64,000 nucleotides of DNA from NCBI GenBank assembly GCA_013298545.1, contig JAAFIA010000001.1:1-64000 (forward strand), in the 5' to 3' direction. Origin of the DNA: Bacteroidota bacterium (GTDB lineage Bacteria > Bacteroidota > Bacteroidia > Palsa-965). Position numbers and translations under genes: made by a program. The first letter of the stretch is position 1. Each line of letters begins with the position of its first letter. Positions 1-8,442 of the stretch are shown here, in pieces. The notes beneath the pieces are model-generated. The model had not been told where the DNA came from. It worked only from the letters and a program-made list of their open reading frames with translations, and did not search any database.

Positions 1-3000
1 TCAGTGGACAATGTGCGGGTACATACACGCTCACGGTAACCGATGCACAGGCTTGCACGGCACAACAGCAAGTAACCATTACACAACCCCCTCAACTCAA
101 TGTCAATCCAACAGGCGTAAACATTACCTGTTTCAATGCCTGTAACGGAACAGCTCTGGCCAATGCTTCGGGCGGAACTCCATTGTATTCTTATGCGTGG
201 GCACCTTCTGGTGGAAATGGCCCAAGTGCATCTGGCCTATGTCCGAATACCTATACGGTTACGGTTACAGACGCACTCGGATGTACAGCCCAAGGTCAAG
301 TGCAGCTGACACAACCCCAACTTTTAGTGGCCAATGCCAGCCAAACAAATGTAACCTGTAACAATATTTGCAATGGAACAGCAACTGCAAACCCAATAGG
401 AGGAACAGGGCCATACACCTACAACTGGACTCCTGGAAATATTACAACGCAAGGCATTACGGGATTGTGCCCCGGCACTTATACTGTTTTGGTTACGGAT
501 GTAAACAATTGTACTTCCCAGCAATCCGTACAAATAACCCAGCCCAATCCAATCCAAACAACAGCAACAGTAACCAATGTAACGTGCAATGGAAATTGTA
601 ATGGCGGTATAAGTATTGGCGTTACAGGTGGAACATCACCTTATTCCTACCTGTGGCTGCCCGGCAACCAAACCACATCTTCTATTGCGGGTCAATGCGC
701 TGGAACATATACCGTCATCATAACCGATGCAGCTGGATGTACCGCAAATCGAGTTGTTACCATTACACAACCCAATCCGTTAACAGTTTCGATCAATGCC
801 ACACAATTGCTCTGCAATAGTAGTTGTAATGCTACGGCAGCAGCTGTTGTATCTGGTGGTACAGCTCCGTATTCGTATTTGTGGATGCCCGGTAATCAAA
901 CAACGGCATCCATTTCTGGACTTTGTGCTGGAAACTATACCGTCAACATCACCGATGCGGCTGGTTGTGTTGCAAACAACAGCATTATCATTACCCAACC
1001 AACTCCGTTTACCGTAAACGCATCGACAAATAATGTAGAGTGTTTTGGACAATGCAATGGCGATGTATCGTTGACTGTTTCGGGAGCAACTGGGCCTTAT
1101 ACTTATTTGTGGGCTCCGGGCGGACAAACCACTTCATTTATAAACGGCCTCTGTGCCGCAACATATACGGTTACTGTAACCGATGTAAATGGTTGCGATA
1201 CGATAATCCCAGTTACCATTACTGAGCCTTTGCCTATTTCGCTTGGTGTTACATCAACCAATGTTTCTTGCAATGGTGGCTGCAATGGAATCGCGAGTGC
1301 AAACCCTTCGGGAGGAACTGCTCCGTATTCTTTTTTGTGGATGCCGGGAGGACAAACAACATCTTCAATATCTGGATTATGTGCGGGATCATATACCCTT
1401 ACGGTAACCGATGCGTTAGGTTGCAGCCAATTACAAATCGTTAATATTTCGCAACCCGCACCACTTTCTGCTCAGATCGCCAGTACGACTTCGAGCTGTG
1501 GTATTTGTAATGGAACCGCAAGCGTTGCCGTTAGTGGGGGAACATCACCCTACGCTTATTTTTGGCAACCTAGCGGAAGCACCAATCCAACAGCAACAGG
1601 ACTTTGTGTAGGCCAACAAACCTGCACTGTTACAGATGCTGCAGGATGCACAACTACGGCAATTGTAACCATTAATCAAGTTGTTAATATTTCCATTACC
1701 AGTGCAGCAAGCACACCATCTTGTTTTGGGTCGTGCGATGGTGTTGCGAGTGCGAATGCCTCGGGTGGCACTGCGCCTTACACGTATGTTTGGCAACCCG
1801 GAAATATTGTTAATCAAAATTTATCGGGACTGTGTGCTGGTACATATTCTGTAACCGCAACGGATGCAAACGGATGTTTCAATACCACTCAGATTACATT
1901 CATTGACCCTCCTTTATTGATTGCTAGTACTGGTGCATCAACAAACGTAAGTTGTTTTGGTGCTTGCGATGGGACAGCCTCCATTTCAGGAAGTGGCGGA
2001 ACTGGTGCGTATTCCTACTTATGGATGCCGGGTGGTCAAACAACTTCGGCAGTAACAAATCTATGTGCCGGAACTTACACCGCCACCGTTACAGATGCCA
2101 ACAATTGTACTGCTCAACAAATTATCACCATTACCGAACCATCACAAATAACAATTGCCTCTGCCATTACTCCTGCAAATTGTACGCTGTGTGATGGTGC
2201 CATTACCGCAACACCATCAGGTGGCTCTGGGCCTTATTCGTTCCTTTGGCTTCCAGGCAATTTAACCACCGCAACCATTACAAATTTGTGTCCGGGTATA
2301 TATACCGTTACGATTACAGATGCAACAGGTTGTACACAAACGCAAGCCATCGCTGTTGGAAATTTAACTGGGCCAACATTAACATCATCTTCTACTCAAG
2401 TTACTTGTAATGGTGGTTGCAATGGAACAGCAAGTGTTACAGTTACTGGCGGCGTTTCACCTTTCACCTACAATTGGTCGCCCGGAAATCCGACTGGCGA
2501 TGGTACGCCAAATGTTACAGGACTTTGTGCTGGAACATGGTTTGCACAAGTTACAGATGCAATTGGTTGCATTACTTTTCAAACAATCATCATCACACAA
2601 CCACAACCCTTATTATCAACGGCTACCCTTGTCGGTGCAAGTTGTAATGGTGTCTGCGACGGTTCGATTACAACAACAACAAGTGGCGGAACTGGCCCAT
2701 ACAGTTTCCTTTGGGCTCCTGGCGGACAAACCACTTCAGGCATTTCTGGTCAATGTGCAGGTACATATACCTTGACCACAACCGATGCCAATGGGTGTAA
2801 CGTGGTACAAACATTCACCATCAGTCAACCGCTTCCTTTAAGCATTGCGCTGACACCCATAAATGTATTGTGCAATGGTGCATGCAACGGCTCCGTTACC
2901 ACATCAGTTTCTGGAGGGACTGCACCATTTTCTTATGTTTGGTCATCAGGACCGATTACACCAAACATTTCAAACTTGTGTATTGGTGGTTATACACTTG

Positions 3001-6000
3001 TTGTAACAGATGCGAGTGGCTGTACAGCACAACAAGCAGTTACACTCACCGAACCTACACCATTGATTAGTAGCATTACACACACCGATGCTTTATGCGA
3101 TGGCTCGTGCGATGGGTCTGCAACTGTTTTTGCAAGCGGCGGTGTCTCTGGTTATACTTATACTTGGTCGCCGGGTGGCGGTACAACGCCTATGGCAAAT
3201 GGACTTTGTGCAGGTGCTTATAGTGTCATTACACTCGATGCAAATGGTTGTGCTTCGGTTTCTTCCGTTACCATTCAAGATCCTCCACCACTCGTTTTAT
3301 CAACAACAGCAACTTCGGTAACCTGTTTTGGAGATTGTGATGCTTCATCCACAGTAAATGCTTCTGGCGGAACTCCGGGCTATACTTACTTGTGGAGTCC
3401 GGGTGCGCAAACTACACAAACCGCAACAGCATTGTGTGCTGGAATTTATAACATCACCGTTACCGATGTGAACGGGTGTCGATCAACAGCAACTGCAACG
3501 ATTACACAACCTGCATTACTTCAAGCAAACACCTCATTCACATCGCCAAGTTGTAATGGTAATTGCGACGGAACAGCAACAGCCTCGCCAATTGGCGGAA
3601 CTGGCGTTTATTCATACCTCTGGGCCCCTGGCGGACAAACAACGGCATCAATTAACAACTTATGTCCGGGAAGCTATACCGTAACCGTTCGCGACGCAAA
3701 TGGATGTATTGATATTCAGGTTGTCAATGTTCTTGCCACATCGCCCATTACGTTAGCGGTTGCAAGTGCGCCTGCAAATTGCGGCTTTTGTAATGGTACC
3801 ATTAATATTACGCCTTCTGGCGGTAACGGCCCATACACGTATGCGTGGTCGGGAGGGTTGCCTGCACAACCCAATCAAACCGGACTTTGTGCGGGGATTT
3901 ATAGTGTTGTTGTTACGGATGCATTTGGGTGTAGCAATACCTTTACCCTTACCATGAACAATGCGGGTGGGCCAACTGGTGAAAATATCATTACTTCGGA
4001 TGTTACCTGTCCCGGAAGTTGCGACGGATCGGCAACGGTATTGCCAATTGGCGGCACATCGCCTTATACTTATATGTGGAATCCTGGCAACCAAACAACC
4101 AATGCGCTCACCAATATGTGCGCAGGAAATTATCTGTTGCAAGTAACCGATTCAAATGGTTGTATTCGCTTCTCTCCTGTAACAATCAATGAACCGCTGC
4201 CGATTGTTGGAAATCCGTTTGTTACAAATGCAACCTGTACCGGAATTTGTGATGGCGCAATTTCGCTTAATACGGCTGGCGGAACTGGTCCTTACTCCTA
4301 TTCGTGGACTCCATCCGGACAAACAACTGTAGCCATTTCCGCGCTTTGTGTGGGAACTTATACGGTAACCATTACCGATGCAAACGGTTGCGTTGATTTA
4401 GATACGGCAACCATCAATCCGTATAATATTCTTAGCGTCAGCATTACTTCTGCCAATGCCAGTTGCAACAATTCCTGCGATGCGTCTGCAAGCGTTTCTA
4501 TTCTTACCGGAACAGCGCCATTTACCTACCAATGGAATGATCCGCTTTCGCAAAGTACGAGTGCGGCAACGGCACTTTGTGCTGGAACTTACAGTGTTAC
4601 CATCAACGATGCGAATGGATGCAATACGGCTCAACCTGTTACCATCACAGGACCTCCAGCAATTGTTGTGAATCCAATAGTGGTAAACGCTTCTTGTGGA
4701 CAATGCAATGGCAATATTACACTCAACGCTTCTGGCGGAACTGGCGTATTGTCGTACCTCTGGAGTTCGGGCGCAACCACAGCCTCTGTTTCCGGATTAT
4801 GTGCGGGTATTTATAGTGTCGTTGTAACTGATGCTACCGGATGTCAAAATACATTTACGCTCAATGTGAGCAATAGCAATGGTCCAACAAGTTCAAATGC
4901 CGTTGTTACAAACGTAAGTTGTGCCAATGTTTGTGATGGTAGTGTTTCGCTTGCTCCAGTTGGCGGAGCTGCTCCTTACTCCTATTTATGGTTACCCGGA
5001 AATCAGACAGCGGCAAGCCTGAATGGACTTTGCGCAGGAACATATACGGTGCAAATTACGGATGCCAACGGCTGTATTTTGATGGATAGTGTTTCGATCA
5101 TATCGCCTAGTGCAATCTTATTGAATCCAACCATCGTCAATACCGATTGTGGTTTTTGCAATGGAAGTATTTCGCTTGCGCCTACTGGTGGTGTTGGCCC
5201 ATACACGTACACTTGGTTGCCCGGAAATTTCACCACTTCATCCATCACCAATTTGTGTGCTGGGCTTTATACCGTTACCATTACAGATGCTACGGGGTGT
5301 TCAGCAACACAAGTAATTCCGGTTATTAATCCCAATACAGGAATGGTAACCGCGACTACTAGTTCCAATATTTCGTGCAATGGCTCGTGCGATGGTTTGG
5401 CAACAATTGGTCTAAGTGCAGGCAATGGTCCGTTTACGTTCCTTTGGAGCACAGGTGCTACAAACGATACTATTTCATCTTTGTGTGCGGGTCTTTATTT
5501 GGTCTTGATTACAGATGCGAATGGTTGTGTTACGTCAACAGGTGTAACCATAACCGAACCAAGCGTTTTGGTTGCTGCGGGGCCATTTGCAATTGATGAG
5601 CTATGCAACAATGCTTGCAATGGAACAATTACATCGCTCCCTGCGGGCGGAACATTGCCTTATTCTTATGTATGGAACAATGCGCAAACTGGGCAAACTG
5701 CGGTTGGCTTGTGCGCTGGTACATACACCGTTGTTGTAACCGATGCCAATGGTTGTACGATCCAACAAATCGATTCGATACAATCGCCGCCTGTATTGCT
5801 TGCTGCTACTCCTGTTGTCGCTGATGCGTCGTGCAATACTGTGGCCGACGGAAACATCGACATTACGATTTCGGGTGGAACGGTTCCTTACACTTACAGT
5901 TGGAATGGTCCAAATGGCTTTGTTTCTTCAAGCGAAGACCTCACCAATATTTTTAGTGGTACATATACGGTAACGGCAACAGACGCCAACGGCTGCACCA

Positions 6001-6025
6001 TTCAAGACACCATCACCCTCAACTC
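1..6025 (+). repeat. Array of 26+ SprB-type modules, about 228 bp each
   Basis: Tandem coding repeats inside the adhesin. Heads fall into two classes: C-x3-C (such as CNGGCNG) and a shorter C-x2-C (CGICNG, CTLCDG, CGFCNG, CGQCNG, CGFCNG, at heads 7, 10, 17, 21 and 23). Most modules carry four cysteines: two in the head, one in LCAGTY and one in the final DAxGC. The last module lacks the second and third of these. The DNA copies are diverged rather than identical, so the array looks old. Confidence 0.92.
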
Positions 6026-6785
6026 AATTTTAAATGTACTAGCAGTTGCCGGAAACGACACCAGTTTCTGTGCGTCGTCGTCGTTCACCCTCGATGGATC
6101 GGCAAGTACTGGCGTAACAGGTTACCAATGGTTCGAGTTGCCAAGCATGAATCCAGTGGGTTCGGGCGCAATTGTTACCATCAATAATTTGCCACTTGGC
6201 GTAACATCTTATGTTCTTGTTGCTTCTGATGGCGCGTGTATCGATACCGATACCATCATCATTTCTTCGTTCCCACCGCCAATTGCCGACGCTGGATCAA
6301 CCGTCGAAATTATTACGGGTGGAGCTACAAGCCTTGGCGGAAATCCAACCGGACCAACCGGCTCAACATTTACTTGGACACCCAACATCGACCTGACCAA
6401 TCCGAATGCATCCAATCCAACAGCATCGCCAGATGAGACAACAACTTATACTGTTCTTGTTACAGATAGTTTAGGTTGTACTGCCACGGATACGGTTACC
6501 GTAATTGTTGTTCCAGAAATTTCGTTCCCGAATGGATTTACACCAAATGGCGATGGCATCAACGATGTTTGGGTGATCGACAATATTCAATTGTTCCCCA
6601 ATTCGGTTGTAGAAGTTTACAACCGTTGGGGCGAATTGCTCTTCCGTTCGGTTGGCTACACGCAGCCTTGGGACGGGCGTTTCGATGGACAAGATTTGCC
6701 TGTTGGAACGTATTACTACATCATTGATCTAAACGATCCGTTATTTACACAAGATTATACAGGACCAATTACCATCCTTCGTTAA
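1..6785 (+). CDS. Giant SprB-repeat adhesin with type B T9SS sorting domain (5' end outside window)
   Basis: The frame is open from base 3 to the stop at 6783-6785, so this is the C-terminal part (about 2260 residues) of a longer surface protein. It contains 26 complete repeat heads of the SprB family, one about every 76 residues, each with a CNGxCNG-like head, a GGTxPYSYxW core, LCAGTYTVTVTDAxGC and a TQP linker. After the repeats come two Ig/PKD-like stretches and a C-terminal domain starting near FTPNGDGINDVW with YNRWGELLF and WDGRFDGQ, which is the gliding-motility-associated CHU_C type (T9SS type B). In Flavobacterium, SprB is a mobile surface adhesin exported by T9SS; this protein is probably an analogous adhesin. 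It is followed after 9 bases by a small sorting-domain protein and then an SprF-like gene. Confidence 0.93.
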   Translation, partial: SGQCAGTYTLTVTDAQACTAQQQVTITQPPQLNVNPTGVNITCFNACNGTALANASGGTPLYSYAWAPSGGNGPSASGLCPNTYTVTVTDALGCTAQGQVQLTQPQLLVANASQTNVTCNNICNGTATANPIGGTGPYTYNWTPGNITTQGITGLCPGTYTVLVTDVNNCTSQQSVQITQPNPIQTTATVTNVTCNGNCNGGISIGVTGGTSPYSYLWLPGNQTTSSIAGQCAGTYTVIITDAAGCTANRVVTITQPNPLTVSINATQLLCNSSCNATAAAVVSGGTAPYSYLWMPGNQTTASISGLCAGNYTVNITDAAGCVANNSIIITQPTPFTVNASTNNVECFGQCNGDVSLTVSGATGPYTYLWAPGGQTTSFINGLCAATYTVTVTDVNGCDTIIPVTITEPLPISLGVTSTNVSCNGGCNGIASANPSGGTAPYSFLWMPGGQTTSSISGLCAGSYTLTVTDALGCSQLQIVNISQPAPLSAQIASTTSSCGICNGTASVAVSGGTSPYAYFWQPSGSTNPTATGLCVGQQTCTVTDAAGCTTTAIVTINQVVNISITSAASTPSCFGSCDGVASANASGGTAPYTYVWQPGNIVNQNLSGLCAGTYSVTATDANGCFNTTQITFIDPPLLIASTGASTNVSCFGACDGTASISGSGGTGAYSYLWMPGGQTTSAVTNLCAGTYTATVTDANNCTAQQIITITEPSQITIASAITPANCTLCDGAITATPSGGSGPYSFLWLPGNLTTATITNLCPGIYTVTITDATGCTQTQAIAVGNLTGPTLTSSSTQVTCNGGCNGTASVTVTGGVSPFTYNWSPGNPTGDGTPNVTGLCAGTWFAQVTDAIGCITFQTIIITQPQPLLSTATLVGASCNGVCDGSITTTTSGGTGPYSFLWAPGGQTTSGISGQCAGTYTLTTTDANGCNVVQTFTISQPLPLSIALTPINVLCNGACNGSVTTSVSGGTAPFSYVWSSGPITPNISNLCIGGYTLVVTDASGCTAQQAVTLTEPTPLISSITHTDALCDGSCDGSATVFASGGVSGYTYTWSPGGGTTPMANGLCAGAYSVITLDANGCASVSSVTIQDPPPLVLSTTATSVTCFGDCDASSTVNASGGTPGYTYLWSPGAQTTQTATALCAGIYNITVTDVNGCRSTATATITQPALLQANTSFTSPSCNGNCDGTATASPIGGTGVYSYLWAPGGQTTASINNLCPGSYTVTVRDANGCIDIQVVNVLATSPITLAVASAPANCGFCNGTINITPSGGNGPYTYAWSGGLPAQPNQTGLCAGIYSVVVTDAFGCSNTFTLTMNNAGGPTGENIITSDVTCPGSCDGSATVLPIGGTSPYTYMWNPGNQTTNALTNMCAGNYLLQVTDSNGCIRFSPVTINEPLPIVGNPFVTNATCTGICDGAISLNTAGGTGPYSYSWTPSGQTTVAISALCVGTYTVTITDANGCVDLDTATINPYNILSVSITSANASCNNSCDASASVSILTGTAPFTYQWNDPLSQSTSAATALCAGTYSVTINDANGCNTAQPVTITGPPAIVVNPIVVNASCGQCNGNITLNASGGTGVLSYLWSSGATTASVSGLCAGIYSVVVTDATGCQNTFTLNVSNSNGPTSSNAVVTNVSCANVCDGSVSLAPVGGAAPYSYLWLPGNQTAASLNGLCAGTYTVQITDANGCILMDSVSIISPSAILLNPTIVNTDCGFCNGSISLAPTGGVGPYTYTWLPGNFTTSSITNLCAGLYTVTITDATGCSATQVIPVINPNTGMVTATTSSNISCNGSCDGLATIGLSAGNGPFTFLWSTGATNDTISSLCAGLYLVLITDANGCVTSTGVTITEPSVLVAAGPFAIDELCNNACNGTITSLPAGGTLPYSYVWNNAQTGQTAVGLCAGTYTVVVTDANGCTIQQIDSIQSPPVLLAATPVVADASCNTVADGNIDITISGGTVPYTYSWNGPNGFVSSSEDLTNIFSGTYTVTATDANGCTIQDTITLNSILNVLAVAGNDTSFCASSSFTLDGSASTGVTGYQWFELPSMNPVGSGAIVTINNLPLGVTSYVLVASDGACIDTDTIIISSFPPPIADAGSTVEIITGGATSLGGNPTGPTGSTFTWTPNIDLTNPNASNPTASPDETTTYTVLVTDSLGCTATDTVTVIVVPEISFPNGFTPNGDGINDVWVIDNIQLFPNSVVEVYNRWGELLFRSVGYTQPWDGRFDGQDLPVGTYYYIIDLNDPLFTQDYTGPITILR

Positions 6786-6794
6786 AAACACATC

Positions 6795-7142
6795 ATGAAA
6801 AAAATAATTTTCATCCTTCTTGTTCTTCCACTGCTCTTGTTGAGCCAGTCTTTTGTGGCCGTACAGGAAAGCAACGAACTTGTTTTTCCAAAATCATTTT
6901 CACCCAATGGCGATGGAAAAGACGATGTTTGGGAAATTCAAAATATTGGTTTGTATCCCGATGCCGTCATAAAAATTTACAACCGCTGGGGGCAACTCCT
7001 GTTTGAGTCCGATAAGCTTGTAAAAGCGTGGGATGGCCGTACCAACGGCAAGTTGGTTGAAACTGGATCGTATTTCTTTTCTGTACAAGCGAATGATCCC
7101 AGTGGAAAAACATTTACGGGCAATATTTATTTAATGCGCTAA
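6795..7142 (+). CDS. Small secreted protein consisting of a lone CHU_C-type sorting domain
   Basis: This 115-residue protein has an N-terminal signal peptide (MKKIIFILLVLPLLLL, cleavage near SQS or SFVA) followed at once by a domain homologous to the C-terminus of the adhesin upstream: FSPNGDGKDDVWEIQNI, IKIYNRWGQLLFES, AWDGRTNG and a terminal TGNIYLMR. There is essentially no passenger domain. It starts 9 bases after the adhesin stop and ends 10 bases before the SprF-like gene, so the three are probably co-transcribed. CHU_C domains normally direct large cargo through T9SS. A free domain could act as a competitor, a subunit of the adhesin-SprF complex or a remnant of a shortened cargo gene. 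The role is inference; the domain assignment is firm. Confidence 0.88.
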   Translation: MKKIIFILLVLPLLLLSQSFVAVQESNELVFPKSFSPNGDGKDDVWEIQNIGLYPDAVIKIYNRWGQLLFESDKLVKAWDGRTNGKLVETGSYFFSVQANDPSGKTFTGNIYLMR

Positions 7143-7152
7143 TGCAAACAAC

Positions 7153-8076
7153 ATGAAAAGGTTTTTCTTTTTTCTGCTTTTGTTACCTCTTGCGCTCTCG
7201 GCGCAGCAGTTGCCGCATTACAGCCAATACACGCTCAATGATTATGTCATGAATCCCGCCATCTCTGGGAAAAATGCGTTCTTTCAAGGCATGTCGGCAA
7301 ATCGTTATCAGTGGGGAGGAATTACCGATGCACCACGTACCTATATTTTGAGTGTACACGGCCCGTTGAAATACGATCACATGGGTGTTGGCGGACAATT
7401 GTACACCGATATTGTTGGTCCAACACGTCGTACTGGATTTTCACTTTCGTATGCGTACCACATTCAGCTTTCCGAAAACTTACATTGGTCGCTTGGTCTT
7501 TCTGCGGGCATCATGCAATTTATGATTGATGCACAAAAAATTACGTTACACGATCCAGGCGATTTGACGTTGACCAATAGTTTGCAATCTGTTTTAACAC
7601 CCGATTTTGGTGCAGGCACATACATTTATTCCGATCGTTTTTGGGTTGGTTTTTCGGCCATGCAATTGCAACGCAACAAGCTTCGTTTTTTTGATTACAT
7701 GTCCAACACCACAAGTGTGATGAATCATCATTTTTACGGCATGTTGGGCTATCGTCAGCCGCTTGGCGATGATTTTATGTTGGAGCCTTCAGCGTTGTTG
7801 AAATACGTAAAACCGGCACCGTTTCAATTTGATGCCGGAGTTCGCCTGATTTACAAAGACAAAGTTTGGATTGGTGGTTCGTACCGCAATTTAGATGCTA
7901 TTGCAGCCTACATGGGTTTTGTCTATCGTGAAAATTTGGTGATTGGTTATGCTTATGATTTCACGACAACCAATATCCGCAATTACAGCACAGGAACACA
8001 TGAATTGGTGATTGGTGTTCGTTTCAACAACCGTGGTTTGCGTTCATCTAGTGCACCTGCACCACAATTCAATTAA
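7153..8076 (+). CDS. PorP/SprF family type IX secretion membrane protein
   Basis: The 307-residue protein has a signal peptide (MKRFFFFLLLLPLALSAQQ) and the hallmark start of the PorP/SprF family: QLPHYSQYTLNDYVMNPAISG. Further family features are the ANRYQWGGI-like segment, SLSYAYHIQLSENLHWSLGL, and alternating amphipathic strands to the C-terminus, which indicate an outer-membrane beta barrel. SprF in Flavobacterium johnsoniae lies next to sprB and is needed for surface delivery of SprB. Type B (CHU_C) cargos are often encoded beside such a partner. The context here, directly after two CHU_C proteins, supports a dedicated export or anchoring role. Confidence 0.93.
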   Translation: MKRFFFFLLLLPLALSAQQLPHYSQYTLNDYVMNPAISGKNAFFQGMSANRYQWGGITDAPRTYILSVHGPLKYDHMGVGGQLYTDIVGPTRRTGFSLSYAYHIQLSENLHWSLGLSAGIMQFMIDAQKITLHDPGDLTLTNSLQSVLTPDFGAGTYIYSDRFWVGFSAMQLQRNKLRFFDYMSNTTSVMNHHFYGMLGYRQPLGDDFMLEPSALLKYVKPAPFQFDAGVRLIYKDKVWIGGSYRNLDAIAAYMGFVYRENLVIGYAYDFTTTNIRNYSTGTHELVIGVRFNNRGLRSSSAPAPQFN

Positions 8077-8079
8077 TTT

Positions 8080-8442
8080 ATGACAACCTACATGCTTGCG
8101 GCCTCCGCACTTTTTGCAAGTCTCTTTTTTTGCAGTTGCAGCAACGAAACCGCTCCGCCAAAAACAGATCCTATTGCGGAGAAAATAGTGAGTACGCCAA
8201 CAACACAACGCGATACCATGCAGCAACGTTTGTATAACGAATGCCTTGGTGCTATGCCCGAAGCACAAGCGAGTTCGCAAGTTGCTGATGCATTTTGCTC
8301 TTGTGTTACCGATTCGGTTACCAGTCGCTTTGGAGAAGCTAATTTTAGAAAAATGGAACGTGAGCTTAGTTCAGGAGCCATGGCAGATACCATTCAAGAT
8401 ATTGCCAAATACTGTATTGAAAAAAGCGGCTTGAATAAATAA
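8080..8442 (+). CDS. Small cysteine-containing probable lipoprotein
   Basis: A 120-residue protein that starts 3 bases after the SprF-like stop, so it is likely translated from the same transcript. The N-terminus is hydrophobic and ends in FFCSCSN; the second Cys could be lipidated, but the lipobox is poor. The mature part has a Ser/Thr/Pro-rich linker, then NECLGAMP, AFCSCVTDSV and KYCIEKSG, giving three short cysteine-bearing helices. I recognise this as a common style of Bacteroidota hypothetical periplasmic protein but not a named family. It is convergent with hemW, with only 9 bases between the stops. Confidence 0.7.
   Translation: MTTYMLAASALFASLFFCSCSNETAPPKTDPIAEKIVSTPTTQRDTMQQRLYNECLGAMPEAQASSQVADAFCSCVTDSVTSRFGEANFRKMERELSSGAMADTIQDIAKYCIEKSGLNK

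Follow-up and report, generated by a model that had tools for sequence, protein, structure and literature searches.

The adhesin, solo and sprF-like genes

The window (the whole 64,000-nucleotide stretch of Bacteroidota DNA that was analyzed) opens with a SprB-repeat adhesin on the forward strand (1..6785; listed ORF 183-6785), which bears a type B C-terminal domain (CTD) at its end. The N-terminus of this protein is missing, its open frame being truncated by the contig start; the frame of 2260 aa reaches the start of contig C1 and comprises 24 SprB repeats and a C-terminal CHU_C domain, the latter placed at 6495..6782 (+) by profile match and alignment. A spacer of 9 nt (AAACACATC; 6786..6794, +) separates the adhesin stop codon from the ATG of a 115-aa gene (6795-7142, +), here called the solo gene, which encodes MKKIIFILLVLPLLLLSQSFVAVQESNELVFPKSFSPNGDGKDDVWEIQNIGLYPDAVIKIYNRWGQLLFESDKLVKAWDGRTNGKLVETGSYFFSVQANDPSGKTFTGNIYLMR. 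A second spacer, of 10 nt (TGCAAACAAC; 7143..7152, +), leads from the solo stop codon to the ATG of a PorP/SprF-family outer-membrane carrier (7153..8076, +). This protein of 307 aa contains no cysteine and was matched by PF11751 (250 bits, 3e-74) and TIGR03519 (267 bits). No terminator-like site was found on the + strand between the three genes in the stretch scanned, and they form one apparent operon. Directly 3' of the sprF-like gene, a 120-aa putative lipoprotein (8080-8442; CSCS near its N-terminus) was observed, for which no Pfam or NCBIfam match was obtained.

The solo protein was described in the sequence-only reading as a signal peptide plus a type B sorting domain with no cargo, located between the adhesin and a SprF-like gene, and the ORF and the profile matches agree with that anatomy. 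An N-terminal Sec signal peptide (MKKIIFILLVLPLLLLSQ; 6795..6848, +) with a putative cleavage site was recognized from sequence and hydropathy; the signal peptide of the SprF-like protein is similar. About 12 residues farther on begins the CHU_C/TIGR04131 domain (6885..7133, +, from profile matches). Pfam CHU_C (PF13585) matched residues 31-113 at 82.7 bits (2e-23; profile positions 3-86 of 86), and TIGR04131 matched at 79.7 bits (1.3e-22; positions 3-85 of 85). Because both profiles were covered nearly from end to end, the sorting domain is complete. The match is not a chance one; the bit scores lie far above the cut-offs, and the domain ranks 8th of the 59 CHU_C matches in the genome. The protein carries the motifs FSPNGDGKDDVW, YNRWGQLLF and WDGR, and of the 17 columns of the domain core that are invariant or nearly so, 16 are retained, N43 being replaced by D. 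No other domain is present. The cargo that usually lies N-terminal to the CTD in type B substrates, which the models do not formally demand, is absent, and the mature protein would comprise about 97 aa. The AlphaFold2 model had a mean pLDDT of 88.4, with values of 87-98 per ten-residue block over the domain; among the neighbors of this model in the PDB are PorZ, a T9SS protein (5m11), and the CTD of a translocon-bound substrate (8glk_D). The solo domain had also been called an almost complete copy of the adhesin CTD. This description holds for the architecture but not for the sequence, as the two domains share 45% protein identity.

Constraint and rarity of the solo domain

Neutral divergence was simulated by randomly mutating the adhesin CTD to the same divergence (45% identity). 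Only 6% of the unconstrained simulants were free of stop codons. When 1,000 stop-free simulants were scored against a profile of the genome's other CTDs, they reached 15.2 ± 9.0 bits (maximum 43.6), whereas the solo domain scored 83.2 bits with the same profile; purifying selection has thus acted on the solo core through most of its divergence. The simulation covers cargo-bearing and cargo-free time alike, so this selection could predate any loss of cargo. The NG86 dN/dS between the solo domain and the adhesin CTD was about 0.3, a rough value, as synonymous sites are near saturation. The frame is intact, and no sign of decay (core loss, stops or frameshifts) was detected in the gene.

The constraint is not complete. 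At the 32 positions that are at least 90% conserved in adhesin-type CTDs, the solo domain keeps 18 and has changed 14, whereas related adhesin CTDs keep nearly all; by these positions it falls outside the adhesin-type (SprB/SprF-linked) subfamily. Its branch length was 1.53, about ten times the 0.14 of the adhesin CTD.

The genome has 12 PorP/SprF-family genes. The solo gene is the sole short one among the 59 CHU_C matches; its open frame spans 118 codons, against 272 in the second-shortest. Among 29 related loci from other genomes, none (0/29) holds a solo CTD in the gap between the CTD and sprF genes, and most have -4 to 23 nt between the CTD stop and the start of the sprF-like gene; two loci measure 45 and 106 nt. 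At one locus (L024), a gap of ~740-820 nt, depending on the start codon, lies between a SprB-type adhesin and the sprF-like gene, and an unrelated 125-aa gene occupies it (1978-2355 on the reverse-complemented locus). The solo gene is absent from six genomes of the same genus and five of the same family; searches with its protein against 59 relatives and 12 genomes of the order gave no second solo, and none was found in 395 genomes of the phylum.

Genomes were also scanned for a signal peptide followed by the motif, using a pattern (an M-K or M-R start, then PxxFxPNGDG at signal-peptide distance) that misses other starts and motif variants. Across 395 genomes of the class, for which both start types were used, and 84,980 species genomes, one other true solo emerged, a 128-aa protein in UBA852 (L080/G257) whose 8-kb locus gave no match to sprF-like genes. 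Several candidates were rejected as true solos: G033 (146 aa) has a cargo stub before its CTD, G031 (173 aa) has an N-terminal region there, and G008/G009 (193-196 aa) and G006 (242 aa), which neighbor sprF-like genes, are cargo proteins of small size. Among relatives, type B proteins of 193-242 aa were seen immediately 5' of sprF-like genes at L064, L065 and L066; at L066, the small type B gene and the sprF-like gene are followed by a 900-aa gene with a TPR-like start and a putative PorE-type resemblance. At three WOR-3 loci (L076, L096 and L101), PNPFSPNGDG directly follows the signal peptide, so that the motif is N-terminal rather than C-terminal.

A cargo-free CTD gene between an adhesin and a carrier is a rare arrangement. 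Solo CTDs did not recur beside SprF-like genes in the genomes sampled, as the single other true solo is not next to an sprF gene. The sequence-only reading would have taken such non-recurrence as a mark of a decayed cargo gene. That step does not readily follow: the domain core is much better preserved than neutral drift would permit, no remnant of cargo lies between signal peptide and CTD, and the order's 11 other genomes all lack an extra solo-type CTD. With its frame intact, its fold confidently predicted and its score above those of the neutral simulants, a decayed gene is not favored.

Origin and proposed role

In a tree of 72 CTDs, the solo domain grouped with the sprF-linked CTDs of SprB-type adhesins and not with most CTDs of its own genome. 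AU tests rejected neither a sister relationship with the adhesin CTD (p 0.49) nor a position beyond the adhesin clade (p 0.56). From solo residue 21 onward, directly after the signal peptide, the protein is homologous to the adhesin. The solo and SprF-like signal peptides were aligned without gaps and gave 10/19 identities and a score of 49. The genome's 98 other signal peptides served as background and had a mean of 9.6 (sd 11.0); one unrelated peptide scored 50, and 2 of 4,950 pairs reached 49; at the DNA level, identity between the two was unremarkable, 7/98 being as good. A smaller comparison with a mixed-genome background had given a stronger-looking result and was set aside for that with the genome's own peptides. 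The closeness of the two signal peptides suggests a tandem duplication across the adhesin-sprF junction. Probably a short stretch was copied that began with the adhesin CTD, crossed the junction and took in the whole sprF-like signal peptide. A single such step would yield the order adhesin-CTD, stop, ATG-signal peptide-CTD, stop, ATG-SprF. The copy would then have diverged fast while purifying selection held its CHU_C core, as the simulation supports.

Type B CTDs bind their cognate SprF/PorP barrels, as seen in the SprB-SprF and PG1035-PorP complexes (PMC9143113), and the type B CTD, which carries signals for export as well as for destination, alone directs the choice of carrier and the destination (PMC12618676). 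A cargo-free CTD would therefore be expected to load an SprF-type carrier that then displays no adhesin. The leading, though tentative, reading of the solo protein is that of a type B substrate without cargo which would dock on an SprF-type carrier; its binding, export and competition are extrapolated from published CTD behavior. The genome has an SprA gene. Judging from published CTD-carrier behavior, the product would be exported by Sec and recognized through its CTD at the SprA translocon. An SprF-type carrier, most likely the neighboring one, would extract it and stay bound to it as an adhesin-free cap; made from the same apparent operon, the protein could tune the number of carriers that display adhesin. 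Two points call for restraint. Up to 235 aa of type B CTDs have been reported as necessary for efficient export (PMC12618676), and the mature solo protein of ~97 aa thus warrants caution over its export and carrier loading. Secretion of type B CTDs needs five motifs, and specificity depends on more than those motifs (PMC12618676); given its 14 changed adhesin-type positions, binding to the neighboring carrier may be lost or altered. The fuller proposal of a dedicated cap, born by duplication, that competes with the adhesin for the carrier and thereby sets surface adhesin density is distinctly doubtful.

The main rival to the carrier cap is that the gene is left over from a second cargo protein: the adhesin, or another type B protein, was copied in tandem, and a recent in-frame deletion then stripped the copy of its cargo and left it without function. 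We consider this somewhat unlikely. The restriction of the solo gene to one genome, with 0/11 in the rest of the order, would fit it, as would selection dating from a cargo-bearing time. Tandem CHU_C arrays exist elsewhere in the genome (contigs C74, C84 and C93), and the 146-aa gene of G033, cargo stub included, resembles such a decay product. Yet the solo gene has no stub of this kind, with adhesin homology starting right after a signal peptide that resembles that of SprF; no second adhesin is present at the locus in relatives; and the domain evolved much faster than the working adhesin CTDs of the same locus (branch lengths given above). The array on C74 (L127-L131; 9.3-15.1 kb) consists of four tandem CHU_C genes, three of which have identical or nearly identical CTDs, which shows that type B substrate genes duplicated recently in this genome.

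It is quite unlikely that the CTD has been retargeted, with another SprF-like protein of the genome (or no carrier at all) as its partner and a site of action elsewhere on the cell surface. Several of the genome's 12 SprF-family genes are not beside a CHU_C match, adhesin-family residues have been lost while the general CHU_C core was kept, and precedent exists in the orphan type B substrates of F. johnsoniae, which share an unlinked carrier (PMC12618676). Against this stand the placement of the gene between adhesin and sprF and the closest sequence similarity of its product, which is to CTDs paired with orthologues of the neighboring SprF. A small surface signal or structural component, with a role comparable to that of P. 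gingivalis PorA, is highly improbable: PorA is indeed a CTD protein with a regulatory role, but it possesses an N-terminal FimH-like domain (PMC7712824), and the solo protein has no second domain. An assembly or gene-calling artefact is barely credible, for although the genome is a draft of 154 contigs and adhesin repeats can mis-assemble, the gene lies in non-repetitive sequence with its frame intact and 45% protein identity to the adhesin CTD, and the contig runs >140 kb beyond it.

The solo gene is real, intact and rare, and it is best understood as a variant of known T9SS substrates that is specific to its lineage and may serve to cap a carrier. No description of cargo-free type B CTDs, CTD-only proteins or decoys was found in the literature searched. 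If it binds a carrier, the protein would be a natural CTD-only competitor and a minimal native probe of type B tag recognition, and Bacteroidota might by this means restrict how much adhesin they display. The gene also suggests how a secretion tag could turn into an independent gene through one duplication step.

Comparison with known systems

P. gingivalis PorA affects the expression of T9SS genes and is not ordinary cargo (PMC7712824). It is akin to the solo protein as a CTD protein with a role other than that of ordinary cargo, such a role being conjecture for the solo protein, and differs in the FimH-like domain that precedes its CTD. The UBA852 solo likewise consists of a signal peptide and CHU_C only, but it is not beside a sprF-like gene and falls on a separate CTD branch. 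In the PG1035-PorP-PorE system of P. gingivalis, a PorP-family barrel also holds a type B CTD protein (PMC9143113); PG1035, however, runs at ~50 kDa and so has cargo (PMC9143113). No PorE-like gene was seen next to the solo locus.

The closest parallel in layout is SprB-SprF of F. johnsoniae, which has the same domain, a CTD gene followed by a sprF-like gene, and SprB repeats as in the neighboring adhesin. F. johnsoniae SprF has a CxC tail that forms a disulfide link to GldK (PMC12635249). Since the SprF-like protein is without cysteine, a disulfide of the SprF-GldK type is unavailable to it, and the carriers that serve this adhesin family may have another mode of tethering than F. johnsoniae SprF. 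At related sprF-like loci, the C-terminal tail is likewise without the CxC motif, unlike that of F. johnsoniae SprF. The known substrates carry cargo before the CTD, whereas the solo gene is a cargo-less extra gene between adhesin and carrier.
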